Shown here piece by piece: positions 6,050 to 63,813 of a stretch of DNA of 64,000 nt. The notes under the pieces were generated by a model, which saw nothing but the letters and a program-made list of their open reading frames with translations, ran no database searches and had not been told where the DNA came from. Where the stretch lies: NCBI GenBank assembly GCA_964017185.1, contig OZ024880.1, positions 37,662,329 through 37,726,328 on the forward strand. Direction: 5' to 3'. A program made the position numbers and the translations under genes. Positions within the stretch are counted from its first letter, which is position 1, and every line of letters starts with the position of its first letter. This stretch comes from Rugalucina vietnamica. Its lineage: Eukaryota; Mollusca; Bivalvia; Lucinida; Lucinidae.

Positions 6050-6230
6050 GAGCCTGTGCGTAAGATAACCAACAATTTGGGTTCCCACCCTGTCTGACAC
6101 AAACCGGCATGTACAGTCAAAGAGGCAGACTAGAATAAAAAGGCACTGATCAGCTGTGCAGTTTCTGCACAGCTGATCTGCGGCTTTGTTTTCGCCTATG
6201 CAAATTGTTGGTTTTCTCATGCAGTGGCTC
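6050..6230 (+). repeat. hairpin MITE family A, copy 1
   Basis: Family A elements run about 235 bp: termini GAGCCGC..GCGGCTC, a longer arm with CGACACAAACCGG, and an off-centre palindrome built on GCTGATCAGC within GCGAAAACAAAGGCG. Here the stem uses the GCTGTGCAG form with matching CTGCACAGC, and 4-bp ATTT duplications flank both ends. Confidence 0.85.
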
Positions 6231-6320
6231 ATTTATGTTTCGATGAATTTTTCAGATCGATTGAATGATGTCTAAAAAAGTACAATTATTCCACAAATGT
6301 TCGTATATAATAAAACTGAG

Positions 6321-6395
6321 ATCCTTTAAGAGCAGTGAACATATTAATGGGAAAGGGGATGGGCCATACCGCGGTTTCGGCTACTTAAGCCTCTT
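6321..6395 (+). repeat. repeat E, 5' part, interrupted by a SINE
   Basis: Starts near GAGATCCTTTAAGAGCAGTG and runs to CTTAAGCCTCTT. It continues after the SINE at 6686 as AAGCCTCTTTAGTAACCC. Related copies lie at 6982-7063 and 10168-10280; the latter also shares the GATTTGGCAACA tail. Confidence 0.7.
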
Positions 6396-6685
6396 CAGGC
6401 GGCCCCCGTGGCCGAGTGGTTAAGAGCGCTGATATTTCATTACTGCACTTAACCATTCGATCATCTCACCGCTATGTCTGGTGTGAGTTCGAGCCCCGCT
6501 CTGGCCACATGTGAGACAAGCCAAGTTCTGCTTACGGGTGTGCCAGGTGGTTTTTCTCGGGGTTCTCCCGTTTTCGCCCCACCTACTGATTGGCCCGTCT
6601 CATATGAGCTGAAATAATCTTGAAAGGGACGTTAAACTGAATCAAAAAAAAAAAAATAATAAAAAAAAAAAAAAAAAAAAAAAAT
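6396..6685 (+). mobile_element. full-length tRNA-derived SINE
   Basis: About 290 bp. The head resembles a tRNA-Ser/Leu type sequence with a long variable arm: A box around GTGGCCGAGTGGTTAAGAGC, B box GAGTTCGAGCCCC. The body ends in ATCTTGAAAGGGACGTTAAAC and an A-rich tail. Perfect 9-bp duplications AAGCCTCTT lie at 6387-6395 and 6686-6694, so it inserted by target-primed reverse transcription into repeat E. Partial or related copies occur at 12436, 20126, 39461 and 44059. Confidence 0.9.
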
Positions 6686-7512
6686 AAGCCTCTTTAGTAA
6701 CCCTATACATTTGGCAACACAAGCCAAGGAGAACTACTTTAATTTTGCATGTTTCAAACGGAAGACTAGTATTATCCAAATGGGGCCAAATATATTAAAC
6801 GTTGGTTAGAAAATGAATCTAAACCGATAATAATTTTCTGACTTCTCCTAAATCTCGGAATACCCTCGTTAATCTCAAAGGACCAAAAGGAAAATATAAT
6901 CTGCACTATGGATGCTGTACGGGGAGACTTTCTAGGGCCGTCACACGGCACAACACCAGCTGCGGTAATAGCAAATAAAAATAAAACTGAGATCCTTTAA
7001 GAGCAGTGAACATATTAATGAGAAAGAGGATGGGCCATACCGAGGTTTCGGCTACTTAAGCATATTTATACATAAATTCGCCATAATAGTTGGGTTCCCA
7101 TAGCCCTTTTATCAAAATAGTTTTTTATCCAATGTTTCAGTCACTCATCTCAAATGTCGAGAAAAATAAGGAAACTTTATGGACTTATTGCGCAAATAAG
7201 CCTATTTTAGAAGTAAGCCGTCAAAGATCTATTGCGGATATTACAGCTTGTAGATCAGCAAAGAGACCAGAAAACAGGAGCTACTACAAAGGTGAACTGA
7301 TTTAATTTCACTTACACCAATCTGATTACTGTTTTCGGATTTCTATCGCAGCGATTAAATGAAGTCAATTTCATTTACACGAAAACATTGCAGCAATAAG
7401 TGGTGCTGACTTGGTTCCCATCGGCATCCCGACGACTAGCCCCAAAAATGTTAAAATTGCCCTAAAGGTATTGTTCCATTTTTTCCTAAATTAATACTTC
7501 AAGTTTTTAGAT
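6686..7512. other. intergenic, fragments of repeat E
   Basis: A repeat E copy lies at about 6982-7063. The rest, including a 71-codon ORF at 7090-7305, shows no recognisable coding signal. Confidence 0.5.
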
Positions 7513-8408
7513 ATGGGGTGCCGTTTTACTATTTATTCCCTATTTATGGATATCCATAATTCGTTTTAGAATATCCATAAATCATTTCTGGATAATTATA
7601 AATGAATTAAGGGTATCCATAATTCATTTAAGGATATCCTTAAATCGATTTATGGATATCCTCAATTCGGCTGAATTATGGACATCCATAAATCGATTTT
7701 AGGATATCCTTAAACGAATAAAATACAACCTGATTTAAGGACATCGATAATTCGATTTAAGAATATTCTTAAATAGGATGAAAATTGGATATCCGTAAAT
7801 CGAAGTATGGATATCCTTAATTCAATTTATGGATAACCTAAAATAGGGTTGCATTTTAGGATATCTATAATTCATTTACGTACAACCTTAAATCACGAGA
7901 AAACTATATAAAAGAAATAGGAAAGATTTTCAAAAATGAATTAAGGATATCCTTGAACCGAATTATCGATATCCTTAAATTAGCCTATTTATGGATATCC
8001 TATATTCAAATTATGGATATCCTAGATTCGAATTATGCCTAAGTTCAAAACTATTTTTAATATCCATAAATACATTTAAGGCTATCTTTAAATAAGCCGA
8101 TTTAAGGATATCCATAATTCGAATTTATAGGATATCCTAAAATCGAATTACGGATATCTTTAATTCAGCATGACTTTTGGATATCCAGAAATGAATTTTA
8201 GGATCCTTAAATGTATTTATGATTATTCTAAATTCATTTATGGACATCTTATGTTCATTTTTGGATATCCTTAATTCATATGTGGATATCCTTATATAAT
8301 TTAGGATATCCATAATCAATTTAGGATATCCTTAATTCAATTTAGGATATTCATAAATGAATTATTGATTTCCATTAATAAGGAATAAATCGTAAAATAG
8401 CACCCCAT
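7513..8408. mobile_element. 896-bp foldback element filled with GGATATCC repeats
   Basis: Ends ATGGGGTGCC..TTTTAC and GTAAAATAGCACCCCAT are inverted repeats. Everything between is a degenerate array of short palindromic units around ATGGATATCCAT, AAGGATATCCTT and TTAATTC spacers, several dozen in all. No ORF of substance and no clear target duplication. Confidence 0.75.
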
Positions 8409-8466
8409 AGTTAGAAGGCTCTGCCATTCAGAAACTTAATTGGAATGCCGTCGATATTAATAAACC

Positions 8467-8474
8467 ACACACAC

Positions 8475-8515
<41 letters not shown>
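8467..8515. repeat. (CA)n(GA)n microsatellite
   Basis: Short CA run followed by about 21 GA units just after the GGATATCC element. Confidence 0.9.
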
Positions 8516-8518
<3 letters not shown>

Positions 8519-8612
8519 GCAATAACAAAAATTAAGCCCCGGTATCAAATAGATTAGCTGTATGAATGAAATTCTAAAATCTAAACTCTAGTCGAGAAAG
8601 CCATTGTTTTAT

Positions 8613-9853
8613 GAGGGTCTGAATGGGGGGTCCTGGTATTCACTAATCTTTAAAAATTTAGCCATTTATTCACTGTCATTAAAATTTTGGCTTATTCATT
8701 AAAATTAGCTTGATTATTCATTAAAATATGATAATTACTAGTCACGCCTTCTTCACCCTGTTTATATACCCATAAGCAAATAGGTGTTCCCCACCTAAGG
8801 CATCCCGTATCTCAAGCCACAAGGACTAGTTCTATTATATTAGATTGTAGACTGCTGAGTGCAACCTTGATATTAACATCTTGAGAGAAGCATAGTTACA
8901 AACTCTGCTAGACCACAAAGCCTCATAGAAACTTTCCGAAATAGTATACCGATTTTTTTTTAGCAAAACCCTTTTAAATCTGTTGGGAGTATAATCCCCC
9001 CTACCTTAAATACTGAATACACCCTAAGTTTTTCCCTGAATCTATTCACTTATGAATAATGCTGAATATTGTTTTTATTTAGTATACCAGTTAGCATAGA
9101 AGTACTATGTGACGTATCATAGTGGATTTGTGCTTATGCCTGATTGTACAATACATTTTATTAATGTCTAAATACCGAGCGAGCAAAGCGAGCGAGGAAA
9201 AAAAATATGTAGCGCCATGAAATTGCCAGATAGATTTGCATTAACGTTCTTAATGCTGCCTTGTTTCTGATTGCAAAAGACACTATAATTATGTTCTGTC
9301 ATATAAAAAAGCAAGATGATGTCCATCCACAGAAAAGATAATCATTATAGGATTGGAACATATATAATAAGGACAAAATGGGGTAATAGAATAAAATAAA
9401 AATACATACGCAAACAAAGTAGCGAAATAGTATCAAGCTCAGTAAACATCCAGAATTATTTATTTTTCTCTGCCTTCAAATGACACATTCCTACATGCTT
9501 GGCTTCCAGACATATGTCTTTCCAAACATTCAGGGATTTCTGAAATATGAATACAACATTTGAACTAAATCGGGTTTGGTGGCGTCCAGACCCCAGAAAA
9601 AAATGAAATTCTGGAATGTCAGGGAGGCCATCTAAGACAATTCCATAGCCAAATTTTAGCATATTCATTATTCTTTAAATTGTTATTATTCACTATTCAT
9701 TATATTACTCTGTTATTCATTAAAAATTTACATTTATTCATTATTCTTTAGGACCCCATTATTCACTAATCATTATTTTTTTTGCTCTTTATTCACTCTC
9801 ATTAAAAAATTTAGGCCATTATACATTAATCATTATACCCCATCCAGACCCTC
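8613..9853. mobile_element. 1241-bp AT-rich element with 6-bp target duplications
   Basis: Termini GAGGGTCTGAATGGGG (8613) and CCCCATCCAGACCCTC (9838-9853) are inverted repeats with one mismatch. Perfect TTTTAT duplications lie at 8607-8612 and 9854-9859. Subterminal sequence on both sides consists of repeated ATTCATTA and TTCACTAATC blocks. No transposase is recognised, so it is non-autonomous. Confidence 0.8.
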
Positions 9854-12435
9854 TTTTATCTGAACTGTTCTGAAACGTTACGAAGATTAAACCGCATCTT
9901 ATTAAGCAGCATGTTTTCTTATATATGAATATATGGACCCTTCTGAAAAAGACATCGGTGCAAGCAGGTACAAATACCCGCCCCTAAAACCAAAGTTAAA
10001 AAAGAAGGACAAGTTATTACTGATGCAAAAAGATCACCCGAGTGAGTAGTTCTTTCCAAAACAGTTTTCGTTCGGCAACACGATAAGCCATGCATGAATC
10101 CGAGAAAATCTTAAACAAATGGACACCAAAACAAGAAATGCAGAGAAGTACAATAGTAATAAAAATGAAACTGAGGTCCTTCAAGAGCAGTGAACATATT
10201 GATGAGAGAGGGGATGGGCCTGGTTTCGGCTATTTAAGCCTCGACAGTGACCCTGCTGATTTGGCAACATGGAACTGAATGGATTCATTTACTAACAGAT
10301 GCACTATGCGTGCACATCAGAATACCGACGACTTGTCTGTATATCTTATTATCAATTAACTACATTAATATTAGTATTTGTATGACCAAATCAGCTAGAC
10401 AGGTGGTTTTATGGGTGCATATTTGGAGGTGTGGGCACTTTTGTGGCATAAGCTGCCACTATGCTTATTATCATCAGTAAATATTCCTGATCTGATTTTG
10501 CCCTGTTGCAAAAATGGGAAACCCAAAATAAGGTCATAATCAAGGTCAAAGGTCACCAGGTGCATTTTATTGCAATATGATTAAAGGGTAGTTTCAATAT
10601 TTATATTTGCTACTAAAATGAAGGTATGTGTTGATAAAACTAAATAAGCAGACACTCATGGTGTGGTTAAACATTCTGGCCATATAAAAGGTCAAAAATG
10701 GGGTCAAATGCCCTTAATCTTTGATGTCGTTTTTTTGTTTTTTGTAACCTAAGGATTAGAATTATCAATGTTGGAATACATTATTTATTGTCTGAAAAAC
10801 ATCAGATGATGTTTTTTTTTTTTTGAATGGGTTTGATTATATTTAAACCAGAATGTAAATGATGGTATTTCTGTGACAGTTCGTGTCACGGATATAAACC
10901 GTTGGTGCAACGTATTGGATATTGTTCATATATGCAAATTACGAAATATAGATCGTTTGTGATTCAAGAAAAGTTAGCACGTGACTATTACAAACACAGT
11001 GCAGCACTGAGTACACCAGTAGATGTGTATGCTTCACCACTGACGGTCGGGCTACTGGGTTTCCTGCTGAATTCCCAACCCTTTTCATAGGTCATCAAGT
11101 GCACTTTGAGAAATTTTCGTCTAATTAGTTACATTTTGAATTTGTATCTACATTTGGGTGGACAAAAGTGGGTTTGCAATAGCAGCAAACATTTCATAAC
11201 TGATTTGCCTTATTTGCAGTCAGCTGTGGGTGCTTGGTGATGTCTGGTCTGGGGCACAACACAGAGCATGAAATGGCCAACCATGTCTCAAAACCATCAG
11301 TAACAGTTCTGGTTGGATTTTTTTTTTTTTTTTTTTTTTTTGTTTTTTTTTTTTGTTTTTTTTTTTTTTGTTTTTTATTGGTAATGTCCTTGACGTTTGT
11401 ATGGTTCTGGTATAATATGTGAGAGGGAGATCCACTGTATAGGTAATTTATTTTCATATACATGTAGATGATTACATTCAAAGTCAAGGTTTGGGATATA
11501 GATGGATGTGTTTAATATTTTACTTGGCACTATCAAATATGCAAGGTGTAGATTGACTACACCCAAAACTTATCAGCGTTTGAGTGATTTTTTATCTGAA
11601 ACACACACTATATTATTACTTGGCATGCCAAGCAAAATGGCACACTGCATGGTATACAAATAAGCAATGCCAGTCTGAAGGCAGTTTTAATCCAAAGACC
11701 GGAAAATAATTGGATGATGCTTTGTATCCGAAACATTAATCATATGTTGTGCACCAGCGGTTAATATTTCAATATAGTCTTTGCAGCAAGTCCGTTTGTC
11801 CATACAACGACTTCTTTTGGATTGATACCTATGTCTCCAAAAACGGCAAGGTTGGCACTTACTGCTCAGGGCTGAATAGTCACTAATATACATATGGATG
11901 CAAACGATAAGATTTGAGAACCCCGAACAGAGTAAGAGGCTTTCAGTTAAATACAACACCGTCTTGTGTGAAAATTGGCTTTTTCTGGCAATTTGGTTCT
12001 CTGGTTGCAGCTCGTGCATGTGTTTATGTCAGATGCCCATGCAGATACTTCATGTTTCAACAACAATACCATCCACAACTGAACCAATGTTTTATCTAAC
12101 TAAGTCACCATATCAGCATGTGATATGGGCTACAGGGAAAACAATTTGTGCCACAGTTTACAAGGCAAAGCGATTGTTTGTCTAGGTTATGGACTATGGT
12201 TGAAACTATCTTCTGTGGGCTTTCATCATCTTAATTCATAATTATGACATGAAGTGTCCATGTTTTATAGCAAAATGCCTTGAGGGATGTTCTGAGAAAA
12301 TTAGTAGAAAGCATGCTGTTTGCAGCTGCGAATCTGGTGCGCATTTGTACATGGTAACCACTGTTTGGAAGCGTACTGCCAACATAGCTTTATGAACTGA
12401 ACATTATTAATTGTCTGATTCAAGCATCTGCACTT
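9854..12435. other. intergenic stretch with degraded repeats
   Basis: Contains repeat E (10168-10280), a block at 10425-10560 matched in inverted orientation by 13680-13795, and long T runs at 11315-11372. At 11700-11870 a minus-strand frame reads SANLAVFGDIGINP, which vaguely resembles the C-terminal part of LINE reverse transcriptases but is broken. No intact gene seen. Confidence 0.45.
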
Positions 12436-12610
12436 GCGGCCCCCACGGCCGAGCGATTAACAGTATTGATTTCATAACCGCAAAATCATTCAATTATATC
12501 ACTGCTTTGTATGTTGTGGGGTTGAGCCCCACACAGGGCAAGTGAGACAAACCAAGTTCTGCTTGCGGGTATGCCAATGTGGGTTTTCTAGGGGTTCCCA
12601 GTCCCGTTTG
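12436..12610 (+). mobile_element. tRNA-derived SINE, 3' truncated and diverged
   Basis: Head GCGGCCCCCACGGCCGAGCG and body AAGTTCTGCTTGCGGGTATG align with the full SINE at 6396. It stops before the tail and has no A-run. Confidence 0.8.
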
Positions 12611-12971
12611 CGTGAAGTTGTTTCAAGACTTCCTAAAACATGTCTTGCCATTGTTGATGTCACACACAGAGAATAAACATTTGTTATAAATGCTGTCTTG
12701 AAACAGGGCCCAGGTTCACATTGAACAGTAAAATCATGATTGAAAGTATCCACACAAAGCATAGGTTAACATTTATTGAGCATTTCATTGACACATTGCA
12801 ATTTACGCATTCTAACAGACAATCACATTTCTTTTGATGGTTCTGTCTAAATTTGAATAAAGGTAATAAATTAGGAAAAATATATGTCATTATGCATTCA
12901 TTAAAGAAATAAAACAACTTCAAAACTTTTACATGTAAAAAGGAACCATTAATCTACATACATACATTCTG

Positions 12972-13312
12972 TACATCTGTAATTCAATATGGTTTGAAAT
13001 AAGTAATTCTGTTTTGCTGATCCTGAAAAATTGTCTTAAGGTATGTTTGAGTTTTCGTCAAGGGTGCCTGCTTGAACGCAAGGGAAGTTCAACTAGTTTG
13101 AACTTTTAAGGAATGCCAACTTGAAAACAAGGAAAGTCTACATCTGTAATCTGATAAGATTTGAAATAAGCAATTTTGTTGTGCTGATCCAGTAAAATTG
13201 TCTCAGGGTACAATATTCGAGCTTTACGTCTAGGGTGTCTGCTTGAATGCAAAGGAAGCCCAACTAATTTGAACTTTTGTTAAGGAGTGCCAACTTGAAA
13301 GCGAGGAAAGTC
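12972..13312. repeat. tandem duplication, unit about 170 bp
   Basis: Units 12972-13138 and 13139-13312 each run from TACATCTGTAAT to GGAAAGTC and share TGCCAACTTGAAA. They differ at many sites, so the duplication is not recent. Confidence 0.75.
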
Positions 13313-13843: not shown

Positions 13844-14058
13844 AAGCCCGCATCATGTACGGATGACAAACTGGGCCAATACGAGATCAGCTTGCGGTAA
13901 CCGCGAAGCTGATGAGCGCCTTTGTTTTCGCCACTCGAAAAGTATAATCTTCTTAAATCCAAAATTTCAAACTTCTAGCTGTCTTTGTGGCTGTACAGCC
14001 AAGTTTGTGTCGGACCTGGTCGGAAACCAAAATTGCTGGTTTTCTCACGCACAGGCTC
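13844..14058 (-). repeat. hairpin MITE family A, copy 2
   Basis: Reverse orientation (palindrome first, long arm second). Stem GCTTGCGG/CCGCGAAGC, then TTGTTTTCGCC and TTGTGTCGGACCTGG. The left terminus is shortened. Confidence 0.75.
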
Positions 14059-14674
14059 AAATCATGTGTCAGTCTCTGGTCACGATGTGGTGGTCCCTAC
14101 TTGATAGTTCAATGATTCATAATTTTCCCCGATTCTACCACCACAAATTAAGAGTAGCATTGACCTAAATAAGAATATCTTCCTTATGATGAGTCGTCTT
14201 AGCGAGTTATTTTCCTTACAACATGCATGATATTGTTTAATACAGCTAACCAATGGATGTAAATAGAACAAAATGTGTTGTGGGCCTTTCTTTAACTACA
14301 TACAAGCTGACCATTTAGAAAAGTCAGTCATTTTACCGCCCCTGCACAACGTGCAAGCAAAAGTGACAGACATTGTTTATCATCTCGCGGGAAAGCAAGT
14401 CATTAGCTCAGCAACTTAGATTACTTATGGCACAGTTTTAAAAAATAGTGCTATAACCACGGTCAGTAGACTGACCAGGGAAGCAAGTCACAACAATGCT
14501 TAGCAACTATTCCATCGTGTCATTGGGCAGCTAGCATAATCGGCGCAAATAACAATCTCGCAGCACACCTCACATTTTTATTCTGTCATAGGCTTAATTT
14601 TTGTTTCCGGAAGTTGCTTCAGCCAGCGTAGCCTACAGTCGGTAGTCTTGATGTGCAGTTGGAACGGTTGAAGC
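14059..14674. other. upstream region of the short CILP-family gene
   Basis: No TATA box is obvious before the ATG at 14675. GCAAGTCATTAGCTCAGCAAC (14395) is partly repeated at 14482. The promoter should lie here, but no element can be assigned with confidence. Confidence 0.35.
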
Positions 14675-14744
14675 ATGGCTTCTCAACTTCGATTATCGCG
14701 TAAAATATTCGTGCTCTTTCTCTGTTGGGTGTTTAATTGGGCAG
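14675..14744 (+). CDS. short CILP-family gene, exon 1 (signal peptide)
   Basis: ATG at 14675, 23 codons plus one base, donor GCAG|GTGAGC at 14745, phase 1. The start is chosen because it gives a complete signal peptide and joins in frame to exon 2. Too short for ordinary ORF detection. Confidence 0.85.
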
Positions 14745-16772
14745 GTGAGCAGAACCTTTCGTTTTGCATGCATAATATTATGTTGTTGACGCTAGTTGAA
14801 GTAGCAACAGTCACAAGGCAGATCAGCAGGTAGACAGGTAGAACAGAATCTTTAATACTTTTCACACAGATTTTGAGTACGAAACAAAACAGTAGAAATA
14901 CTGAAGGTTTTCTCATGGCGCGACTAATGTTGGGATGCACTTGCGATGGCGCCATATAGGCTTACCGAAGATGATACGTTTTATTGCAGATGTAAATGGA
15001 CAAGGGGGTGGGGACAGATTCTTACTGATCGAGAAAGAAAACCATGGTGGAATCCGAAAGCGACAGATTATGGGTCAGGAAGTAACAGTGAACGGTAAAG
15101 TGTTTTCGATGTTACAGGAGATTAAACCTGGTTCCGATCCTAACGAGCAGTGCTATGTCAATATCGGTGTGTACACGTCAGAGTCAGCCGAAGTAGGATT
15201 GCCGGGTGCTGAGGTCACCGTCGTGTCTGTGATAGATTACAATACCACTGATACGGGTTATACTGTAAATTTCGGAGGTTACAGTCGAGGGATAACGAAC
15301 ACGAACGGTCAAGTGTGCTTGGTGATGTTATGCTATGACATTGATACTGCGTTTGGAGTTGCGTACGTGGCTACGGAAAACGAACGACTCTTCACGCCGC
15401 TAACGCGGAAGGATATACCAAATCTGCCATCGACAATCAAGGATATCAAGCCAATAGCAAATAATGAAGAGTTGGCATTCTTAGGTTCGACTACTGGACC
15501 AGTTGAGGGGAAAACGGGACCACTGTATACCTACCACGAAAAACATCTATGTGACACAAATGGTCTAAGCGACTACCATTTCGTGTTCTCATATCTGTCG
15601 ATTCCCGACGAGCTGACAGAAACCCCTGTCCCTACAATTTCCTCTGAACCCATCCCCGACACAAGAACCTGGTACTATGGTCTAACAAAGAGGGACAGGC
15701 AGACGTGCTACTTCAAACTTAAGATTAGGGTAAGCAGTTATTCATAAAAAAAACCCCTAATTGTTGGTTTACCAAAAACTTTTCCAGAACGCTAATGTGT
15801 GAATCATATGACTTGAGCCGAACAGAGAAAGTTACAAAAGTTGGTCAATGAGGTTTTTCTCTTTCATGTACCAACAAATACGAAATAATATTGTTGTAGG
15901 TTGCCTCATCTCAAGTGAAAGTTGAGTTACGGAGTATGAACCCCAATACCTTACAGAGCTACGGCACGTTTATTTCTGGACCCAAGAACGACCCCGACTC
16001 CCAAGACAAAACCCTTAAAGTAGCTTGTCTGCAGTTCCGCTGTCCAACTCTGATGGTGGATCGCAATGACACCATGGATACACTAGTGGAGGGGAAAATT
16101 ACAGTACCGGGAAAACCGGAGGGATGCACAGTGCGGTAAATTAGATCTAGTCTGGTCATCAGATAAATATGCATCCTCGAACCAGGCTACTTCGCTGAAC
16201 TAATGGCATGTCGAACAATGTAGTCGCTGATAAGCATGCACTGAAGGCATACTAGTAATAAAAGAATTCAAAATAACATGCAACCTGATCAACCTCTTTT
16301 TAGAATTGCATACTTCATTAAATAAACACCAGACCAGTTTTATAATCATTGTCTTATATACATTTTCAGTTCTCTCATTTAAATTTGGCTCAAACTGAAA
16401 CTGGCTTTGATCCAAACTATAGTGTAACAGAGTTTTTTGTGTATTTTATAACACTGGTTTTGTGATTTCTCTATATGTAAAAGTCGATTTTTTTTTAGCT
16501 AAACCTGAAAAATAAGGTCAAAATTTTCTGAATTCTACGGACATAATTGTATCTTTTTCAGCTCCACCCATCTTACTGGTATCGAAGCAGACGAGTTGGG
16601 GTTTTCAGCTACACTATACACCGGACACAACTACGGACCAAAGGAAGGGATTTTCAAGCACACTGACACCATGTTTTCAAGAGCCCGTTGCTTTGCCGGC
16701 CGAGATTTCCTGGGCAACAGCTATTCTATGGCATTTGATGACAACAATGCACTAGAATATGACTGTACATAA
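14675..16772 (+). CDS. short secreted CILP-family protein, C-terminal half only (complete)
   Basis: Exons 14675-14744, 14990-15729, 15900-16135 and 16562-16772 join in frame to 418 residues plus TAA. Exon 1 encodes a clean signal peptide: basic start MASQLRLSRK, hydrophobic core IFVLFLCWVF, then small residues. The mature protein starts with a short spacer and a furin-type IRKR (15052-15063), then aligns with the C-terminal half of the CILP-like neighbour: shared cysteines, an N..GQ.CL motif, GPLY, CYFKLKIR, CLQFRCP and HNYGP. The last two introns have the same positions and phases (0 and 2). There is no TSP1, Ig or CILP/FAM171-like module. It is therefore a tandem paralogue reduced to the half that vertebrate CILP releases by cleavage. 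Secreted/matrix location is inferred; catalytic activity is unknown (the old pyrophosphohydrolase label for this half is disputed). AATAAA at 17152 is a possible polyadenylation site. Confidence 0.9.
14990..15729 (+). CDS. short CILP-family gene, exon 2
   Basis: Acceptor TTTTATTGCAG ending 14989, donor AGG|GTAAGC at 15730. Codes for the spacer, IRKR, and most of the CILP C-terminal-like region. ATGs upstream of 14990 in the same frame are intronic. Confidence 0.92.
15900..16135 (+). CDS. short CILP-family gene, exon 3
   Basis: Acceptor TTGTTGTAG ending 15899, donor GTGCG|GTAAAT at 16136; phase 0 in, phase 2 out, as in the neighbour. Contains ACLQFRCPTLM. Confidence 0.9.
16562..16772 (+). CDS. 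short CILP-family gene, exon 4
   Basis: Acceptor TCTTTTTCAG ending 16561; TAA at 16770-16772. The first base completes an arginine codon. Reads STHLTGIEADELGF, HNYGPKEGIF, then two cysteines and EYDCT. It is homologous to the last exon of the CILP-like gene and was placed by splice phase. Confidence 0.88.
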
Positions 16773-16837
16773 CTTATAGTATGTGTATGATGAATGATTT
16801 GAAGATGAATTAAGAGACTTAGCACATGTATCATGTT

Positions 16838-17077
16838 GAGCCGCGACGTGAGAAAACTGGTCTTTGGGGTTTCCGATCAGGTCCGACACAAACCGACGTG
16901 TACAGTCATAGAAGCAGGCTAGAAGTTTGAAATTTCACATTTAAGAAGAGGAATTGTACTATCCGTGTAGCGAAAACAAAGGTGCTGATCAGCTTCGCAG
17001 TTACGCAGTTACTGCGAAGCTGATCTGCGCCTTTGTTTTCGCATAGGCAAAAATCCGGTTTTCTCATGACACGGCTC
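16838..17077 (+). repeat. hairpin MITE family A, copy 3
   Basis: Full length, GAGCCGCGACG..ACACGGCTC, flanked by ATGTT on both sides. Stem GCTTCGCAG/CTGCGAAGC. It lies 65 bp after the short CILP gene stop, so it is probably part of that gene's 3' UTR if AATAAA at 17152 is used. Confidence 0.85.
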
Positions 17078-17667
17078 ATGTTCATGTAAACATTAACTTA
17101 ATTGAAAAAGAGGATATTTTCACAATGCTTAAAACTAGTAACCTTAAAAGGAATAAATGCTATCTGACCTTTCCAAGTGTGTTTTATTTTTAATATTGCA
17201 GAAAAGTAAGTTGCGCTTACGCTAATCCTTAGCAAGGGATTTCTCGTATATATGACTTGTCCTTTATTACGCAAAAAAATAAATAAACAAATAAATAACG
17301 AAGAATGGCCAAGCAGTGTCTGTAAACTGGTAAAAGATTTGAGAGTAATGACCAGATCCTATACAAACCAGCCTACGCAAAGATGGTGTCTAGATGCTTG
17401 AAATCTCAAGTATGGGTAGTTTTAATTGTTGTTGATTCTCTATTAAAACAATTATGATGATGTTGAAGGTACATTTTTACTCATTTGCATTAAAAGTATA
17501 TTATGACTGAAACACTGTTTTCACGTCTCAAAATTTCAAAAATGAGTTGGTTCATCACTGTGATTAGGAAGACCATCGTTATTTCTTGAGTATTCAGTTT
17601 ATAAGTGTACCTGATCTTTTTAGAAAAAAAAATGTATTACATGATCAGTCAAAACAAGGTCAAATTT
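17078..17667. other. AT-rich intergenic stretch
   Basis: AATAAA at 17152 and an AAATAAATAAAC cluster at 17275-17300. No gene or repeat recognised. Confidence 0.4.
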
Positions 17668-18336: not shown

Positions 18337-18567
18337 GAGCAAATCATGGGAAAACCAACAATCTGCATATGCGAAAACAAAGACGCAGATCAGCTTTGCG
18401 GTAACCGCGAAGCTGATCAGCGCCTTTGTTTTCGCTACTCAGATAGTACAATTCCTCTTCTACTTAAATCCAAAATTTTGAGCTTCTAGCCTGCTTCTCT
18501 TACCGTACAGGCCGGTTTGTCGGACCTGTTCGGAAACCACATTGCTGGTTTTCCCACGAGGTGGATC
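18337..18567 (-). repeat. hairpin MITE family A, copy 4
   Basis: Reverse orientation, nearly full length; stem GCTTTGCGG/CCGCGAAGC. Flanks read GCCCT on both sides. Confidence 0.85.
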
Positions 18568-20280: not shown

Positions 20281-20504
20281 ATGGGTCGCTGGATAAAGTT
20301 TTGTCAGCTGATTATGTTTCATATAATACATTTGGTCGGTCTTTCCTACATGCTTTTCGTTTAAATTATAGAGTGTCTCTTAAACTTATGTGCGAGCCGC
20401 TGCTTCAGAAAACCAACAATCTACATATGCGAAACCAAAGGCGCAGATTAGCAATGCAGTAACTGCATACCTGATCAGCACCATTGTTTTCGTTTTTGTT
20501 TTCG

Positions 20505-22130: not shown

Positions 22131-25100
22131 AGTAAGTAAGTAAGTAAGTAAGTAAATTTTATTATAGTGACATGTGTTATGTACAATACAAATATCAAAT
22201 ATAAATTCAAACAACACCCGGCCGCATTGGGCCTACAAGTCACTCTAATAATATAAATACATACAATGAATGAGAAAAAAAGGTATAGCATAGTTTAACG
22301 AAATCATACGTGATTTTGAATATGTGCTGTTCTGTTTATAGTACAAGGAAAATATGATGTTCCTAGAGAATATGCATAGCTAATCATATTGGCAATAGGC
22401 GTTAGATTTCAGTTGTAGAGTAAAGATTTTCTGCGTTTCATTGCATTAACAATAAATTTTGCTACATAAATGAAATGATTGTCAACAACGTGTCTTAGTT
22501 TTTCAAAATCATTTAACATTAAGAAATTTGACTTAGTTTCAGTTGCTTTAGAAATGAGCGTTTGTCTGAGGTCTTGATAGCATGAACATTTGAAAAGAAA
22601 ATGAATCTCATCTTCTGTTTCTGTTGAGTTACAAAAATGACATACTCTCTCATGAACTTTTAAACCTGAATATCTCCCTGTCTCTACTCTGAGGGGTAAA
22701 ATGCCGCACCTGAACTGGGCAAAATGTGATTTTTCAAGTTTTGTCATATTAGAAAGTAGATACTTTTCTGTACTATATTCAAATTTGAACTCCCTATATG
22801 TTCTAAGTTTTGATACAGTTTGTAATTTATCTAACCAATCGATTTTATAAACATTCAAAAGGTGATTTTCAACAAATACCAGATCAACAGGTGTTTTGTT
22901 TTGAAAATGGGTAAGAAGATCTACTTTGGTTAAAATCGTTTTAACCTCAGAGCACCAGTTTTTACCTCCAGTCATGGAATAGTCATAATTAAAAACTTTC
23001 TTTGTAAGCCTGTTTTCATTCATATTAACTAGTCTATTCCACAAACGTAAGACGTTAGCCCAACGCCTGTTCGTAGAGACTACCCAACCCATATCCCCAG
23101 TAATCGCTAAAATTGGTGTGAATCTATGTACACCCATGAAATACCTTATAGCCCGATTTTGAATCATGTCAATTTTATCGAAATTCTTGAAACCCCATAC
23201 TCCAGAACAGTAATCTAATACAGGTACTACACATGTGTAAAACAGTTTGCTATAAGTTTTGAATCCCACATCTTTATATGAATGAATTTTCGAAATCACA
23301 GCACCGAGAGCCCTTCCTCCAGCTTTAGACAAGGTTTCTGCAATTATACCAAATTCCATATGTTCATTTAGATGTACCCCAAGGTATCGATATACTGATG
23401 CATAATCAACAGTTTCATTCCCAACTTTAAAATCGAAATCGCTACACTGCTTCCCTTTATTTCTAAAGTGCATTACTTTTGTTTTGGAAAAATTGATTAT
23501 AAGTCGCCACTTTCTACACCAGTCATTAACAAAATTTAAAAGTGTCTGCATATCATTTTCGTTTTCAGCAAGAAGTAAAACGTCATCAGCATATGTTAAG
23601 CAACTCAGTTTATTATCACCAAATGCAACACCCTTATTCAAGTCATTTAAACCACTTATGAGATCGTTTATGAAGAAGGCAAAAATCGTTGGCGAACTGG
23701 AATCGCCCTGTCGCACACCTGATGAGACCGGGAACCAGTCTGTCAGTTTACCATTGAGCTTTAAACATGCTAATGTATCAGACAGAATAGATTTCACAGA
23801 GTTATAAAATTTCCCATTAATTCCATTTGATAGTAACTTATATAACAACACATTTCTATCTACATAATCGAAGGCTTTTTGAAAGTCTATAAAAACTCCA
23901 AATGTGTCCTTCTTTTGTGCAAGTCTGTTTCTTATGAGGGTACATGCAGAATATACATGATCTTCACATGACCGTTGTCGACGGAAGCCATTCTGCTCTT
24001 CCGCTAAAAGATTTTCATCTTCCAAATAATTCAGAAACCTGTTATTTAATACCGCAGAGTACAATTTACTTACAACAGATAGAAGGCTTATACCGCGATA
24101 GTTCAGTGGTATGCGTTTATCTTTACTAGAATCTTTTGGAATTGGAGAAATCATAGCTTTTTTCCAAGTACTAGGCAAAATACCCGTATCAAAGCATAGA
24201 CTAAACAGAGCATGTAATACATCAATGATAATGGGAAATTTTAAAACTTCGTATGGTATTTTATCAAACCCTGTACTTTTACCGTTTTTGGCACAATTTA
24301 CTACCTTTTTGACCTCACAGTGCGAGATAGGTACATTCAAAATGGGGTTATGCTCAAAAAGAGGGTCAAGCATTCTATCCTCTAAAAACATTTTTTCGGA
24401 CAAAATTTCGTTATAAAATCTTTCATTGAAATTGTCACTGGTTTCGGCATTATAAAGGTGTTTAAAATCGTCTGACCATTTCTGATAAACAAAATTTTCA
24501 TCTGATATTACAGTTTCGTCATTTCCATAGACCTCCATTGGCACGGAGCTTTTTCGCTTTGGACCTAAATTTTTTATGTGATCCCAAAATGCTTTTGGAT
24601 TTTCTGTACTGACATGTTCAACATCAATCGCTAATGATCGCCTGTATTCTCGTTCTGCGGACCTTAATCGTTTGTCGAAAGCATTTCGAGCAATTTTAAA
24701 GTCATTCCTCATACGATTTTTCGTGTACCGATCTCCCTGAAATTTCAAAAAGGCCTTTTCTTTCATGTGAAAATTGTGCCATAACAAATCTAAATTTTCG
24801 TCCCAATATGGTTTATATTGTTTATAGCGTTTTCTTGATTTCTTCGAACAGTCAAACGATGGAATATTTTCATCCATTTCCCTAATCAACTTGCAACAAA
24901 AATCGTCATACAGTTTATCAACGTTTTCTTGGTTTTCTCTACAGAGTTCAATATTACGAATAATGTCAAGAAATGCTCGTCGTGTCAAGTCAGAACTCAT
25001 GAAGTTTGCCGGTATACGTTTCAGTTTGTACACTTTGGTGTTAAATGGTATTCGTGAACCGCTAGCTTCCTCCTGTCCAACAGTGTCCTCAATTAAGGTA

Positions 25101-25800
25101 GAATATTTAAAGTCAAATCGAAGAAAGTTATGGTCCGGAATTTTGCTACGTTCTCCCAATAATTGCTGTAAGCTATGCTGATTTATTACTGATGTAGGGG
25201 AGATAACCTGAAAATTCTCACAGGAGCTGAAACAGTCATGTGGTACTAAAATATAGTCAACAACCGCTCGACCCCTATTTGAAACTGACGTGAAATTATC
25301 AGAATTCTGTGAAAAGCGGCCATTCAATACACACATTTTTGCATCCAGCAAAAAGTCGATTAGCGTATGGCCATGTTGATTTACTGTCTTGTCCAAGGGA
25401 AAACGGGACGGAATTCCATCTATATCGTTAATAACATCTGACAGTTCCCCAATTCGAGAGTTGAGATCCCCGCATATAAATACTGCATCGTTATCTGACA
25501 GCAAGTATATTTGACCAAGTAAGTGTGAGAAGAAATCAATTGCATTACGGCCCCATGGAGAATTTTCCGGGGGTAAATAAACTGAGTATATGATAATCTT
25601 ATAGTCAGTCTGTTTTGAGGTAAGCGAAATTCCCAATATACCATCAAATGATTTGTCAATTACACTTATTTCATAACTTTCATAAACCGAAAGCACACGC
25701 TCGAAATCTAAAATAAAGAGATATGCATAAAACTGGAAAAGGGATTTGATTATCGCCGTTAGCATTTTCTGGACCTTCTTTTCTCTCCATTATAATATGC
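22131..25800 (-). mobile_element. LINE (APE-type non-LTR retrotransposon), 5' part missing
   Basis: The coding region 22409-25765 is followed (minus strand) by a short 3' region ending in a (TTAC)n tail at 22155-22131, a common simple-repeat LINE end. There are no LTRs. The 5' end, around 25770-25830, lacks the first part of the endonuclease; a short frame MERKEGPENANG just upstream may be a leftover of another ORF. Confidence 0.85.
22409..25765 (-). CDS. LINE ORF2: endonuclease (partial) and reverse transcriptase
   Basis: Uninterrupted 1118-residue frame starting at ATG. Residues about 55-220 carry the later part of an APE-like endonuclease: VYLPPENS, CGDLNSRIG (residue 98 on), VVDYILV and IPDHNFLRF; the N-terminal catalytic Asn/Glu motifs are missing. 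The reverse transcriptase spans about 490-800 with PLNYRGISLLS, FIDFQKAFD, SSGVRQGDSSSP and the catalytic LTYADDVLLL (YADD near residue 725). Near residue 1040 a CHFCNSTETEDEIHF..C cluster is a C-terminal zinc-knuckle-like motif found in several LINE clades. An intact frame suggests fairly recent insertion, but without a whole endonuclease it is probably inactive. Clade not assigned. Confidence 0.92.
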   Translation of the reverse strand: MLTAIIKSLFQFYAYLFILDFERVLSVYESYEISVIDKSFDGILGISLTSKQTDYKIIIYSVYLPPENSPWGRNAIDFFSHLLGQIYLLSDNDAVFICGDLNSRIGELSDVINDIDGIPSRFPLDKTVNQHGHTLIDFLLDAKMCVLNGRFSQNSDNFTSVSNRGRAVVDYILVPHDCFSSCENFQVISPTSVINQHSLQQLLGERSKIPDHNFLRFDFKYSTLIEDTVGQEEASGSRIPFNTKVYKLKRIPANFMSSDLTRRAFLDIIRNIELCRENQENVDKLYDDFCCKLIREMDENIPSFDCSKKSRKRYKQYKPYWDENLDLLWHNFHMKEKAFLKFQGDRYTKNRMRNDFKIARNAFDKRLRSAEREYRRSLAIDVEHVSTENPKAFWDHIKNLGPKRKSSVPMEVYGNDETVISDENFVYQKWSDDFKHLYNAETSDNFNERFYNEILSEKMFLEDRMLDPLFEHNPILNVPISHCEVKKVVNCAKNGKSTGFDKIPYEVLKFPIIIDVLHALFSLCFDTGILPSTWKKAMISPIPKDSSKDKRIPLNYRGISLLSVVSKLYSAVLNNRFLNYLEDENLLAEEQNGFRRQRSCEDHVYSACTLIRNRLAQKKDTFGVFIDFQKAFDYVDRNVLLYKLLSNGINGKFYNSVKSILSDTLACLKLNGKLTDWFPVSSGVRQGDSSSPTIFAFFINDLISGLNDLNKGVAFGDNKLSCLTYADDVLLLAENENDMQTLLNFVNDWCRKWRLIINFSKTKVMHFRNKGKQCSDFDFKVGNETVDYASVYRYLGVHLNEHMEFGIIAETLSKAGGRALGAVISKIHSYKDVGFKTYSKLFYTCVVPVLDYCSGVWGFKNFDKIDMIQNRAIRYFMGVHRFTPILAITGDMGWVVSTNRRWANVLRLWNRLVNMNENRLTKKVFNYDYSMTGGKNWCSEVKTILTKVDLLTHFQNKTPVDLVFVENHLLNVYKIDWLDKLQTVSKLRTYREFKFEYSTEKYLLSNMTKLEKSHFAQFRCGILPLRVETGRYSGLKVHERVCHFCNSTETEDEIHFLFKCSCYQDLRQTLISKATETKSNFLMLNDFEKLRHVVDNHFIYVAKFIVNAMKRRKSLLYN

Positions 25801-29021: not shown

Positions 29022-29167
29022 TTTAATAAATAAAGCAATAATTACATATTCCCTGCTATAATTAGTCTGACTTCTAGTAGACATGATTAAAGAGTATTTT
29101 TTTTACATTTTTACAAAATACAAGCATGCCTGGAGAATTAACTATATTGGCATTTTTAATAATATTT

Positions 29168-29394
29168 GAGCCGCCTATTGGGAAAACCAACAATGTGGTT
29201 TCCAAACAGGTCCGACAAAAACCGGCCTTGACAAGCACAGAAAATAGCTAGAAGCTTGAAATTTCGGATTTAAGTAGAAGAGGAATTGCACTATCCGAGT
29301 AGTGAAAACAAAGACGCTGATCAGCTTCGCGGTTACCGCGAAGCTGATCTGAGTCTTTGTTTTCGCCTATGCAGATTGTTGGTTTTCCCATGAG
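29168..29394 (+). repeat. hairpin MITE family A, copy 9
   Basis: Stem GCTTCGCGG/CCGCGAAGC. The right end stops at TTTTCCCATGAG, just before the AAGTCACA repeats. Confidence 0.85.
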
Positions 29395-31188: not shown

Positions 31189-31262
31189 TACAGTATTAAT
31201 GGCAATTCTGGCTTTGACTAGAAATTACCTGAACATGTCACTTAACCCATTCATGACAAAAT

Positions 31263-31496
31263 GAGCCGCCTCGTGGGAAAACCAACAATGTGGTTTCCGA
31301 ACAGGTCCGACACAAATCGACCTGTACAGTCACAGAAGCAGGCTAGAAGCTTGAAATTTCGGATTTAAGTAGAATAGGAACTGTACTATCCAAGTAGCGA
31401 AAACAAAGGCGCTGATCAGCTTCGCGGTTACCGCGAAGCTGATCTGCGCCTTTGTTTTCGCATATGCAGATTGTTGGTTTTCCCATGAGGCGGCTC
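31263..31496 (+). repeat. hairpin MITE family A, copy 10 (reference-like)
   Basis: Best-preserved copy. Ends GAGCCGCCTCGTGGGAAAAC and its complement at the right, AAAT duplications at 31259-31262 and 31497-31500, stem GCTTCGCGG/CCGCGAAGC. Confidence 0.92.
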
Positions 31497-31849
31497 AAAT
31501 GATTCACAGATGATTATCATTTGCGCGAGTCCACTTTAATTTTAGGGGCCTTCAGTCGTGATTTTAAAATCTTATTCCACTTTTTTATGAGATTCCTCTG
31601 AGCATCACATCTGGGACTATACTGTTTGCATATGTCCCATAAAAAGGACGCCAGACTTATATATAAAGTTAACCACACTTTTGGTATACATGTAGTTCAG
31701 TATGAGAAAATTCAAATTTTCAAAACAAAATTAAACCTGCACATTGGTGCCATTCTTATTCAATGTTGTCACATGATATGCTTACAAGTATAATACAAAC
31801 TATTTAATTAATGAAAAAGAATGACTCATGTCAGACCAGATAAGAAAAT

Positions 31850-32339: not shown

Positions 32340-32434
32340 ATATCATGGTCATCTTAAACATGAGGGAGTGAAACCTATTACATTCAACTACAACTAATGT
32401 TTACCAGTAGTCAAGAATCTTTGGTTTGAAAATT

Positions 32435-32657
32435 CAGCCGCATCATGACAAAACCTGATTTTTGCCTATGCAAAAACAAAGGCGTAGATCAGCTTCGCAG
32501 TTTTATCAGCGCCTTTGTTTTCACTACTGGAATAGAACAATCCTTCTTCTTAAATCCAAAATTTCAAGCTTCTAGCCATCTCCTGTGCTTGTACAGCTTC
32601 GTTTGTGTCAGATCTGGTCGGAAACCCCGGAAGACCTGTTTTCTCACGTCGCGGCTC
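32435..32657 (-). repeat. hairpin MITE family A, copy 13
   Basis: Palindrome shortened to GCTTCGCAG then TTTTATCAGCGCC; both terminal arms present. Confidence 0.8.
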
Positions 32658-32857
32658 AAATAATGAACATAAGGGTTGTTTAATGTATAATGTTTGCTTC
32701 AGTCACATCAAAATGAATCAACAAAAATTTTGGTTGGCTGTTTGATTCTTTCTGAACATTTCAGTCTGAATCAACAATTATTCAGTCATGTAGGCACCAA
32801 TCAAACATTAACATTTTTTAGCGTAATAGTATCAAATAATGTGTTGCTCAACTATAT

Positions 32858-33091
32858 GAGCCGCCTCGTGGAAAAACCAACAATGTGGTTTCCGAACAGG
32901 TCTGACACAAACCGGCCTGTACAGCTACAGAAGCAGGCTAGAAGCTTGAAATTTTGGAGTTAAGTAGAGGAGGAATTGTACTATCCAAGTAGCGAAAACA
33001 AAGGCGCTGATCAGCTTCGCAGTTACTGCGAAGCTGATCTGCGCCTTTGTTTTCGCATATGCAGATTGTTGGTTTTCCCACGAGGCGGCTC
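32858..33091 (+). repeat. hairpin MITE family A, copy 14
   Basis: Full length; ATAT duplications at both ends (32854-32857, 33092-33095); stem GCTTCGCAG/CTGCGAAGC. Confidence 0.92.
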
Positions 33092-33379
33092 ATATAACTA
33101 AACGGAGGTAGGTTTAGAACCCAGCATTTGTCGATTGGGAATCCTACATTTTTCCACTTGGCCGCCACTGCCCTCACAAACAAAGGAAGTGCAGACAGGC
33201 TCAGCACACACACTTAAACTTTTGCAGGTTTTCTAACAAAGACCCTGGAGAAACACATTCTTGTGACCCACCTCCAATATCAGTAAAACAAAACATCAGT
33301 AAACCAGGTATCAAAATGAAAGTATACTGGTCAACAATACTGAAGACACTTTGTCCTGAACAATAACAGCTTATAAAAT

Positions 33380-33618
33380 GAGCCACATCATTAGATAACC
33401 GGATTTTTGTCTATGCGAAAACAAAGGCTCAGATCAGCTTCACAGTAACTGCGAAGCTGATCAGAGCCTTTGTTTTCGCTACACTGATAATACAATTTCT
33501 CTACTTTCTAAATCCAAAATTTTCAGCTTCTAGCTTAGTATCTTCAGTTACTGTACAGGTCGGTTTATGTCAGACCTGGTCGGAAACCCCGAAGACTGGT
33601 TTTCTTGCGTCGAGGCTC
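33380..33618 (-). repeat. hairpin MITE family A, copy 15, within a 62-bp direct repeat
   Basis: Full length; stem GCTTCACAG/CTGCGAAGC. The roughly 62 bp before it (33320 on, AAAGTATACTGGTCAACAAT) are repeated directly after it (33619-33680). Confidence 0.85.
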
Positions 33619-33736
33619 AAAGTATACTGGTCAACAATACTGAAGACACTATGTCCTGAACAATAACAACTTATAAAATGTTGTAAATACATGTTACACT
33701 ATAAAATGACTGTATTTACAGCTTGAATTAAAAGAT

Positions 33737-33973
33737 GAGCCTTCACATGATAAAACCAACAATTTGGGTTTCAACCAGGTCCAACACAAACCGGCCTTTA
33801 CAGTCACAGAAGATGGTTAGAGGCTGGCAATTTTGGATTTAGAAAGTAGAGGAATTGTACCATCCATATAGCGGAAACAAAGGCGCTGATCAGTTTCGCA
33901 GTTACTGTTGCGAAGCTGATCTGCGCCTTTGTTTTTGCCTATGCAGATTGTTGGTTTTCCCATGCGGAAGCTC
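33737..33973 (+). repeat. hairpin MITE family A, copy 16
   Basis: Full length, termini slightly diverged (GAGCCTTCACATG); stem GTTTCGCAG/TTGCGAAGC. Confidence 0.85.
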
Positions 33974-34002
33974 ATATTTAAGCTCAACATCAAAAACAAT
34001 AA

Positions 34003-34460: not shown

Positions 34461-34490
34461 TTTAACTATGGCTTCATGAAAACAATATTT

Positions 34491-34732
34491 CAGCCATCAC
34501 ATAATAAAACCAACAACATGCATAGGCAAAAACAAAGGCGCAGATCAGCTGTGCAGTAACTGTTACTGCACAGCTGATCGGTGTCTTTGCCTTTGCATCA
34601 CAGTTAGTACAATCCCTCTTCTTCTTAAATCCGAAATTTCAAGCTTCTAGCCTGCTTCTGTGACTGTGCAGGCTGGTTTGTGTCAGACCTGGTTTGAAAA
34701 CCCAAATTGATGGTTTTCTCCTGCGAACGCTC
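34491..34732 (-). repeat. hairpin MITE family A, copy 18
   Basis: Stem of the GCTGTGCAG/CTGCACAGC type; long arm complete; termini diverged. Confidence 0.82.
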
Positions 34733-36293: not shown

Positions 36294-62465
<26,172 letters not shown>

Positions 62466-62483
62466 CTGAAAGATAGAAAAATC

Positions 62484-62739
62484 CATTACAAAAACATGCC
62501 CACGTAATATACAGATTTTCCCCAAGTTGTAAAAATTCAACATTTTTAGTTGGAAAAATTTGGCATTTTTTTTCGTTGATACTCAAAACATAGATTGTGG
62601 ATACAAGTTACAAGTCAAGTACCCACAATCTATGTTTTGGATCAAAAATAAAAATAATAGGTAAACCCCTGCCAACCCCAGTTTTACTTTTATAAAAGTG
62701 GGGTGTAAGTGGGTATACATTACACAGACATGTAATTAT
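62484..62739. repeat. hairpin MITE family B, copy 7, 15 bases from a SIK acceptor
   Basis: CATTACAAAAACATGCCCAC to ACACAGACATGTAATTATC; central hairpin shortened, with ATTGTGGATAC/GTACCCACAAT arms. Confidence 0.83.
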
Positions 62740-63323
62740 CATACTACACCTCACAGAGACACTTCTGAATACACCCACTACCTAAATTTTGATGGAGAAA
62801 GAAAGCAATCTTTAGCGTATTTACAGTAAAAGCTTGAGAGGCCAATTCTTAACGCCACCTAACTATTGAAGAAGACAAAGCAAGACCCAGCTGTGCCCAG
62901 CTTGCGGTGTCCTAGCCTGATTAACAGAAAACAATGTAAAACAGTGATTGATCGTGCTAGTCTGTAATTGCTCGTCCAATATTGGCTAGGTTTGCGTCAT
63001 AGAGCTATTAAAGACGCTCTTCAGTTACCGAGATGACAGGAACTGATCGTGCTGCCAGGTCATGTGTACTTAATAGATACGACGTGACAACAGCTTAACA
63101 ATGAAATAATATGCTCCGAAAACACATTTATATTCCAGCACATATAGCACCATTGATGATTTTCATAAGTGAAATGGTTACTTCAGGGACAAAGTTATTT
63201 AGGGCTAAAGAGAATAGCTGGAGTACTGTTTCTTTCTGTCAGAAAACCAAAGATGGCAGTAAGATCGAAAGCATCTACTTTCCAATTAGCAGTCACTGTG
63301 CAAAAGGATTTGAGCTTTCGCAT
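62740..63323. other. SIK intron, no clear feature
   Basis: The exon preceding 62465 is not found here; no repeat recognised. Confidence 0.4.
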
Positions 63324-63602
63324 CATTACGAAAACTCGCCCATGCAATAAAAAGAGACTTTTGAGCTTTTAAAAATTGAAAATTTTCAGCTGAAAAAATT
63401 TGATATTTTTCTTAGTTTTGCTCAAAACATAGATTGTGGGTACACGCTAGAACCGCCTCGCCGAGGCGGTTCTAACGAGTACCCACAATCTATGTTTTGG
63501 AGCAAAAATAAGGAAAATAGGTATACCCCTGCATACCCCAATTTTTCTATATAACACTGGGGTTCAAGGGGGTATACAATACACGGACATGTTTTCCTGA
63601 TG
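63324..63602. repeat. hairpin MITE family B, copy 8 (best copy)
   Basis: CATTACGAAAACTCGCCCAT to GGACATGTTTTCCTGATG; complete GAACCGCCTCGCCGAGGCGG stem at 63451-63470 with ATTGTGGGTAC arms. Confidence 0.88.
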
Positions 63603-63813
63603 TGAGAAAACCAACAATCTGAGTTTCTGACCAGGTACAACACAAACCGCCCTGTACAGTAACTGTTACAGAAGCAGGTGAGAAGCTTGAAATTTCGTAT
63701 TTAAGAAGAGTATAGTGAAAACAAAGGCGCCGATCAGCTATGCAGATACTGCACAGCTGATCTGCGCCTTTGGTTTTGCATATGCAGACGTTGGTTTTCT
63801 AGTGCAGTGGCTC
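63602..63813 (+). repeat. hairpin MITE family A, copy 42
   Basis: Directly abuts family B copy 8; left terminus missing. Stem GCTATGCAG/CTGCACAGC. Confidence 0.83.

Follow-up and report, generated by a model that had tools for sequence, protein, structure and literature searches.

Paired changes in the arms of a subterminal hairpin in an abundant non-autonomous transposon family of the bivalve Rugalucina vietnamica

Family A elements and their hairpin

The stretch analysed here, referred to as the window, comprises 64 kb of the 1.09 Gb genome (47 contigs) of the lucinid bivalve Rugalucina vietnamica (contig C12, OZ024880.1, positions 37662329-37726328). A single interspersed element of ~240 bp, family A, recurs in it: a profile built from family A copies gave 53 matches on the two strands, of which 28 are nearly full-length. 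The element has the termini GAGCC...GGCTC, and its terminal inverted repeats (TIRs) are short and imperfect, with an arm identity within copies of 0.72 over 22 positions. A 65-nt hairpin is located near its right end. According to a sequence-only reading of the window, both arms of this hairpin change together between copies, so that pairing survives although the sequence differs, either because the structure is selected or because template switching copies one arm afresh from the other.

Perfect 4-bp target site duplications (TSDs) flank nine of the 26 two-ended copies, compared with 2.8 obtained by flank shuffling. Among the other lengths from 2 to 9 bp, only 5 bp was above chance (2 vs 0.28; 26 copies). 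The left flanks of the 26 copies read ATTT in six cases, AAAT in four and ATAT in four, together 14. Sola2 elements have been described with AWWT TSDs (ATAT, AAAT and ATTT; PMC3627910), and family A resembles Sola2 and its non-autonomous derivatives in its 4-bp AT-rich AWWT TSDs and its short imperfect TIRs. The passages of that source on these elements make no mention of a 65-nt subterminal hairpin such as that of family A. Given their TIRs and 4-bp AWWT TSDs, the family A copies are non-autonomous DNA transposons (miniature inverted-repeat transposable elements, MITEs) with a Sola2-like target site; their membership of Sola2 is putative. A Helitron-like element, with a 3' hairpin, no TIR and no TSD, was also considered and is ruled out by the TIRs and TSDs of family A.

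Like other MITEs, family A is short, carries TIRs and TSDs, occurs in tens of thousands of copies and has little coding capacity (a stop-free frame of at least 60 aa in 31 of 122 copy-strands). It differs from them in that its strong stem is a separate internal hairpin by one end, better conserved than the TIRs. The hairpin frame TGATCAGC-N17-GCTGATCT, which includes both mismatched T's, was found 82,660 times genome-wide (41,432 + 41,228), while the reversed control pattern of this frame gave zero genome matches. Genome-wide counts are of exact 33-mers, and those for large families may be lower bounds. The window is enriched in family A, its 53 matches in 64 kb comparing with 37 in 20 sampled 10-kb stretches, in which some letters are N.

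No match to the 23-base core of family A was retrieved from viral contigs, none to its gapped core from a collection of other genome contigs and none to one whole copy among phages; Rfam gave no match at the gathering threshold in the window. Text searches of the literature with core strings and hairpin-frame peptides returned only isolated short strings in papers unrelated by title. No description of family A was found by titles and abstract openings, which does not prove its absence from print. An open frame runs on the reverse strand through the hairpin of the copy at 31262-31498. Its peptide is very similar to peptides in predicted proteins of corals and molluscs; a literature search for such strings found none. 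If this likeness is right, the hairpin predates this genome, and the family A repeat may contaminate gene predictions across phyla.

The hairpin consists of 30 pairs. Counting from the loop, position 15 is a T.T mismatch, and the loop itself is TTA in 93 of the first 100 genome hairpins listed. Three main matched stem types occur, TC.G, TC.A and GT.A. DNA folding of one copy per stem type gave -39.3 to -40.6 kcal/mol, with z between -12.8 and -14.5. Both arms could be read in register in 22 window hairpins (Table 1). A larger set of 94 copies was made up of 28 from the window, 17 from 20 place-sampled stretches, 10 from loci L001-L008, a group picked for its perfect TC.G stems, and 39 short stretches; 18 of the 94, without a hairpin in the 65-nt frame, were left out of pair counts.

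The arms are the best-conserved part of the element. In 55 copies, 10 of which come from the loci fetched for a perfect TC.G stem, mean column divergence is ~0.02 for pairs 7-14 and 0.05 for the outer arms. The body reaches 0.128, pairs 1-6 reach 0.17 and the TIRs 0.20. All 22 window hairpins lack a match at pair 15, with T on the left and A on the right (in left-arm sense) in 20 and C and A in two. It is likewise unmatched in all 38 hairpins that were not selected by the frame, where the left side is T in 37 and the right side A (left-arm sense) in every case. In a separate set of 39 hairpins it is matched in one, the diverged partial copy L010 4986-5069. The choice of the 39 short stretches enriches GT.A and TC.A and by construction gives these stretches the T.T at pair 15 as well as unbroken pairs 8-14, and statements on pair 15 rest on the other hairpins.

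Covariation between the arms and ancestry of the stem types

The three stem versions named in the sequence-only reading were recovered by exact search: GCTTCGCGG with CCGCGAAGC (its copies 9, 10, 34 and 35) at 29324, 31419, 55670 and 56466, GCTTCGCAG with CTGCGAAGC (3, 14 and 20) at 16992, with a loop duplication, 33014 and 39112, and GCTGTGCAG with CTGCACAGC (1, 18, 25 and 28) at 6153, 34548, 42870 and 45008. The counts of four, three and four copies agree with its lists. Its claim that the arms change together is borne out at pairs 2, 5 and 6, when judged against shuffled, slid and tree nulls.

Each of these pairs has two common states, and they are matched in 20 (pair 2), 21 (pair 5) and 21 (pair 6) of the 22 window hairpins. 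Among 18 equal-length hairpins, 17 of them distinct, covariation scored 0.139, compared with 0.081 after shuffling (reached in 0 of 500 shuffles) and at most 0.070 with slid partners. Cells changed on both sides numbered 18 in the same hairpins vs 5.7 shuffled (0 of 500), and further pair types were not in excess (12 vs 12.5; 434 of 500). Under a tree null in which the two sides change independently on a tree of non-hairpin columns, the observed agreement had a P value of 0.012-0.019 at the slowest rate tried, falling to 0 of 1500. These three pairs out of 30 bear most of the effect, and other stem changes are mostly one-sided. Covariation beyond ancestry is thus present at three pairs; the pattern itself cannot tell RNA from DNA.

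Plain subfamily ancestry would require a single origin of each stem type within a single lineage, with the covariation reflecting only shared descent. On the 94-copy tree built without the hairpin columns, a minimum of 8 changes is needed for the TC/GT doublet (67 labelled copies) and of 10 for pair 2 within TC (57 labelled), and a single clade is rejected by the approximately unbiased (AU) test both for GT (p 0.006) and for G (p 1e-6). The window tree alone, which took in four partial copies, one of them dropped in its clade tests, gave 5 and 4 changes, with single clades again rejected (p 0.012 and 0.0005). The doublet is barely clustered on the larger tree (8 changes vs 9.6 shuffled, P 0.08; window P 0.12). 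As the stem types do not form single clades on the tree of the remaining element, whole-element ancestry does not explain them. Shared descent nevertheless finds some support in the state of pair 2, which is partly clustered (10 changes vs 19 shuffled, P 0.001), and in the low resolution of the element tree, only one of 29 inner branches of the window tree being starred. In addition, no matched GT.G was detected in the 76 hairpins, so that a short succession of types, TC.G - TC.A - GT.A, would suit the core, which would have travelled as one block.

Linkage between columns decays along the element, mean r2 in the 94 copies being 0.32 for columns 1-5 nt apart and 0.044 for those separated by 41-80 nt. 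All four combinations occur at about three quarters of distant column pairs, a pattern that recurrent mutation yields also. Family A elements therefore look mosaic, which suggests that the hairpin core moves as a block, and when elements are mosaic, whole-element ancestry need not explain covariation. The partner columns of pairs 2, 5 and 6 stand out, with r2 values of 0.86, 0.78 and 0.93 in the 94 copies, above all of the 352 other column pairs at 10-30 nt (94 copies; mean 0.116, maximum 0.73). In the 55 copies, which include none of the short stretches picked by type, the values are 0.85, 0.60 and 1.0. Between the main types, a difference at pair 5 always comes with one at pair 6, and the two are counted as one event. 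The chance of finding three matched pairs among the seven common side changes is ~2e-5 assuming independence, which pairs 5 and 6 may violate. Descent explains the sharing of the stem types but leaves unexplained why the differences between them strike partner positions, and we consider it very improbable as an account of the covariation. At the ends of the element, columns more than 150 nt apart were more linked than those 81-150 nt apart (mean r2 0.13 vs 0.046).

Decay of landed copies and proposed origin of the matched stems

Once a copy has landed, its arms decay largely independently. At pairs 1-7 of the first 100 genome hairpins listed, 69 have perfect arms of the three types, 24 are changed on one side and seven on both, and none of the 100 carries a private matched change at the same pair. 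CpG decay of the TC.G type was counted genome-wide through three double counts and one single count. The left-arm CpG transition was found alone 448 times, with its matched partner 53 times and with an unmatched right CpG transition 42 times; the other matched CpG double was found 86 times. The ratio of matched to unmatched doubles is 1.26 (95% confidence interval 0.84-1.89), supposing equal decay of the two right-arm CpG sites. The matched double being not clearly commoner than the unmatched one, and private matched changes being absent from the 100 hairpins, the decay of the two arms appears largely independent. Supposing that the single transition is equally frequent in the right arm, about 6 doubles would be predicted from the singles. 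Since 53 and 42 are both higher, the excess points to copies of different age and not to coupling. With ~80,000 copies in one genome, simple counting is able to separate matching on source elements from matching after insertion.

Double CpG decay was rejected as the whole cause of the matched pairs, as pair 3, the CpG neighbour of pair 2, hardly varies (matched C in 21 of 22) and the change at pair 6 is no transition. Wobble-guided decay left no clear sign in the one-sided transitions (29 vs 23 cells by wobble class, with pairs 15 and 19 excluded).

In the rest of the stem, the 22 window copies hold five matched cells vs 43 one-sided ones (1.3 matched expected, P 0.003), or four matched vs 1.0 expected when one of two sister copies is omitted (P 0.01). 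The corresponding figures are six matched vs 78 one-sided in 39 hairpins (2.5 expected, P 0.03) and seven vs 99 in 76 hairpins (2.5 expected, P 0.003; pairs 1-28 only). Independent divergence of the arms within a subfamily, which the sequence-only reading had set against its own claim, is largely what is seen after insertion, although a small matched excess remains (7 vs 2.5).

Alternatively, replication template switching or hairpin mismatch repair might copy one arm onto the other, in which case the matching would be mutational and not selected. Compensatory stem changes of several bases have been described as arising through template switching (Monttinen and Loytynoja 2022, PMC8794818). Family A resembles the changes outlined in that source in showing a multi-base matched change in a long stem, the TC and GT types differing by two adjacent bases in both arms, and differs from them in keeping a mismatch inside the stem and in the rarity of private matched changes, of which there were none at pairs 1-7 in the 100 hairpins. 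The copy at 34490-34732 bears a 6-nt insertion that lengthens the palindrome, as recopying might produce, though a tandem duplication plus one substitution would also explain it. Recopying past pair 14 would erase the T.T, yet the T.T persists together with matched changes outside it, at pairs 17, 19 and 29. The inverted loop TAA is no commoner than TCA (2 vs 2 of the first 100 listed), and the lack of a clear excess of matched over unmatched CpG doubles (53 vs 42) tells against recopying as well. Template switching thus receives no support from these counts, and we regard recopying as an unlikely source of the matched stems.

The explanation that we favour, and that we place about midway between doubt and acceptance, is that the arms are kept alike on source copies as putative inverted recognition sites, that the matched pair is inherited and exchanged as a block, and that arm-by-arm decay follows. 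Family A would be mobilised by a transposase encoded elsewhere, and the hairpin would represent a pair of inverted ~30-bp sites near one end of the element. Both arms would have to be read by one protein, a dimer of the transposase or an accessory factor, and they would stay alike only on the few source copies still transposing. A shift in the preference of this protein would be followed by a shift in both arms of successful source copies, whose matched pair would pass to new copies. The hairpin would also be exchanged as a block between lineages, and each landed copy would then decay in one arm after the other. Conservation of the unpaired position, the rare repair of the T.T and the covariation of the TIRs seem to fit two inverted protein sites better than pairing for itself. 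The TIR arms co-vary too (within-copy identity 0.724 vs 0.680 shuffled, P 0.0002; 26 copies), which would be foreseen where a protein and not hairpin pairing governs the matching. Covariation across repeat copies need not mean that the fold of each copy is under selection; family A is an element of an ordinary kind, but its pattern is instructive.

Several points weigh against this explanation. The protein that would read the arms is putative, and a 65-nt near-perfect stem exceeds the need of two short binding sites. Cross-linkage between pairs 5 and 6 reaches 0.77-1.0, as high as between true partners, so that only pair 2 is separately informative. The 39 short stretches (of 40) had been picked from the first 100 listed frame places, largely by stem type. 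Matched minor changes show a small excess (four of the seven lie at pair 19), and purely independent decay does not explain it. At pair 19, the 76 hairpins hold G.T in 21 cases, A-T in four and A.C in none, which is the path expected if pairing matters. The right arm has T here in 25 of the 76 and the chance of this pattern is ~0.012, with the caveats that two of the four A-T copies are close window relatives (29167 and 55513) and that A.C is present in one window hairpin outside the 76.

The state of pair 19 and the slight excess of matched minor changes would be accounted for if selection on source copies acted on the folded hairpin itself, whether as DNA extruded or single-stranded in transposition or as a transcribed short hairpin RNA. 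The near-perfect 30-pair stem (z about -13 to -14.5) and a covariation exceeding shuffles, slid partners and the tree null also agree with it. It is harder to reconcile with the T.T at pair 15, where none of the 22 window hairpins and none of the 38 unforced ones is matched (though one of 39 is), and with one-sided transitions that would wobble in RNA, which are not clearly favoured. Moreover, the A.C at pair 19 does occur once in the 22 window hairpins, and unmatched variants are shared between copies, namely C at pair 4 in two window copies and the right-arm T at pair 19. Selection on the fold is a possibility that we regard as doubtful. Of the proposal in the sequence-only reading that the structure is selected, the covariation stands, while selection for structure and selection for two inverted recognition sequences are inseparable here. 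In a more specific form, an extruded DNA hairpin with its T.T would be the active form, read by the transposase or a host factor; pairing would be selected at three tunable pairs near the loop and the mismatch would mark orientation. We find this form decidedly unlikely; if true, it would mean that a cut-and-paste transposon with TIRs includes a step in which a hairpin is read.

Family A copies and other features of the window

The copies with their hairpins are listed in Table 1. The breakpoints of four hairpin-deleted or shortened copies (41999-42226, 58644-58852, 60651-60852 and 61256-61475) lie inside the arms.

Table 1. Family A copies in the window, from a profile search of the window and arm alignment, with TSDs from flank comparison. 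Pairs are numbered from the loop; "the 22" are the hairpins with both arms readable in register.
Feature	Position	Strand	TSD	Hairpin	Remarks
Family A copy	6048..6232	+		6133-6193	GT.A; two profile pieces, internal deletion
Family A copy, cut within right arm	13884..14059	-			left arm TC.G; outside the 22
Family A copy	16837..17078	+		16972-17040	TC.A; 8-nt tandem duplication at loop
Family A copy	18341..18567	-		18373-18433	TC.G; right-arm changes unmatched at pairs 5, 19
Family A copy, right part with hairpin	20394..20494	-			outside the 22
Family A copy	29167..29394	+		29304-29364	TC.G; pair 19 changed on both sides, pair 17 unmatched
Family A copy, full length	31262..31498	+	AAAT	31399-31459	TC.G; all matched save T.T
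Family A copy	32434..32658	-			deletion in left arm
Family A copy	32857..33093	+	ATAT	32994-33054	TC.A; all matched save T.T
Family A copy	33378..33619	-		33417-33477	TC.A; pair 17 matched change, pair 4 unmatched
Family A copy	33736..33975	+		33873-33936	TC.A; loop insertion
Family A copy	34490..34732	-		34528-34594	GT.A; 6-nt loop insertion lengthening palindrome
Family A copy	38955..39190	+	ATTT	39092-39152	TC.A
Family A copy	39743..39960	+		39863-39923	GT; pair 2 unmatched (A left, C right)
Family A copy	40393..40614	+	AATT		hairpin shortened
Family A copy	41999..42226	-	ATTT		hairpin shortened
Family A copy	42715..42950	+		42850-42910	GT.A; all matched save T.T
Family A copy	43103..43338	-		43148-43215	GT.A; 7-nt tandem duplication in one arm
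Family A copy	44958..45183	-		44988-45048	GT.A
Family A copy	49637..49873	-		49676-49736	TC.G with unmatched changes
Family A copy	50302..50524	+		50425-50485	left TC.A; right arm with unmatched changes
Family A copy	51054..51291	-	AAAT	51093-51153	TC.A; pair 4 unmatched
Family A copy	51600..51836	-	ATTT	51639-51699	TC.A; pair 4 unmatched (C)
Family A copy	55513..55749	+	ATTT	55650-55710	TC.G; pair 19 changed on both sides
Family A copy	56308..56544	+	CAAT	56446-56506	TC.G in GGTCTT-group body
Family A copy	58644..58852	-			hairpin core lost
Family A copy without left end	59179..59382	+			GT-like hairpin with indels; outside the 22
Family A copy	60651..60852	-			hairpin core lost
Family A copy	61256..61475	+			hairpin shortened
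Family A copy	61799..62035	-		61837-61897	TC.A; pair 14 matched change, several unmatched
Family A copy	63599..63815	+		63717-63777	GT.A; pair 6 unmatched on left

Other features of the window include a LINE-type reverse transcriptase at 22412-25789 (- strand), open over 1126 aa (RVT_1, E 8e-38), and CILP-domain exons with a SIK3-like exon at 2171-4003 (+), 14905-15744 (+) and 36297-38276 (-), the SIK3 match lying under the Pfam cut-off. A minisatellite with a 39 bp unit in 26.6 copies occupies 45492-46528, and an array of 20-22 bp units at 7542-8363 is built on the palindrome GGATATCC.

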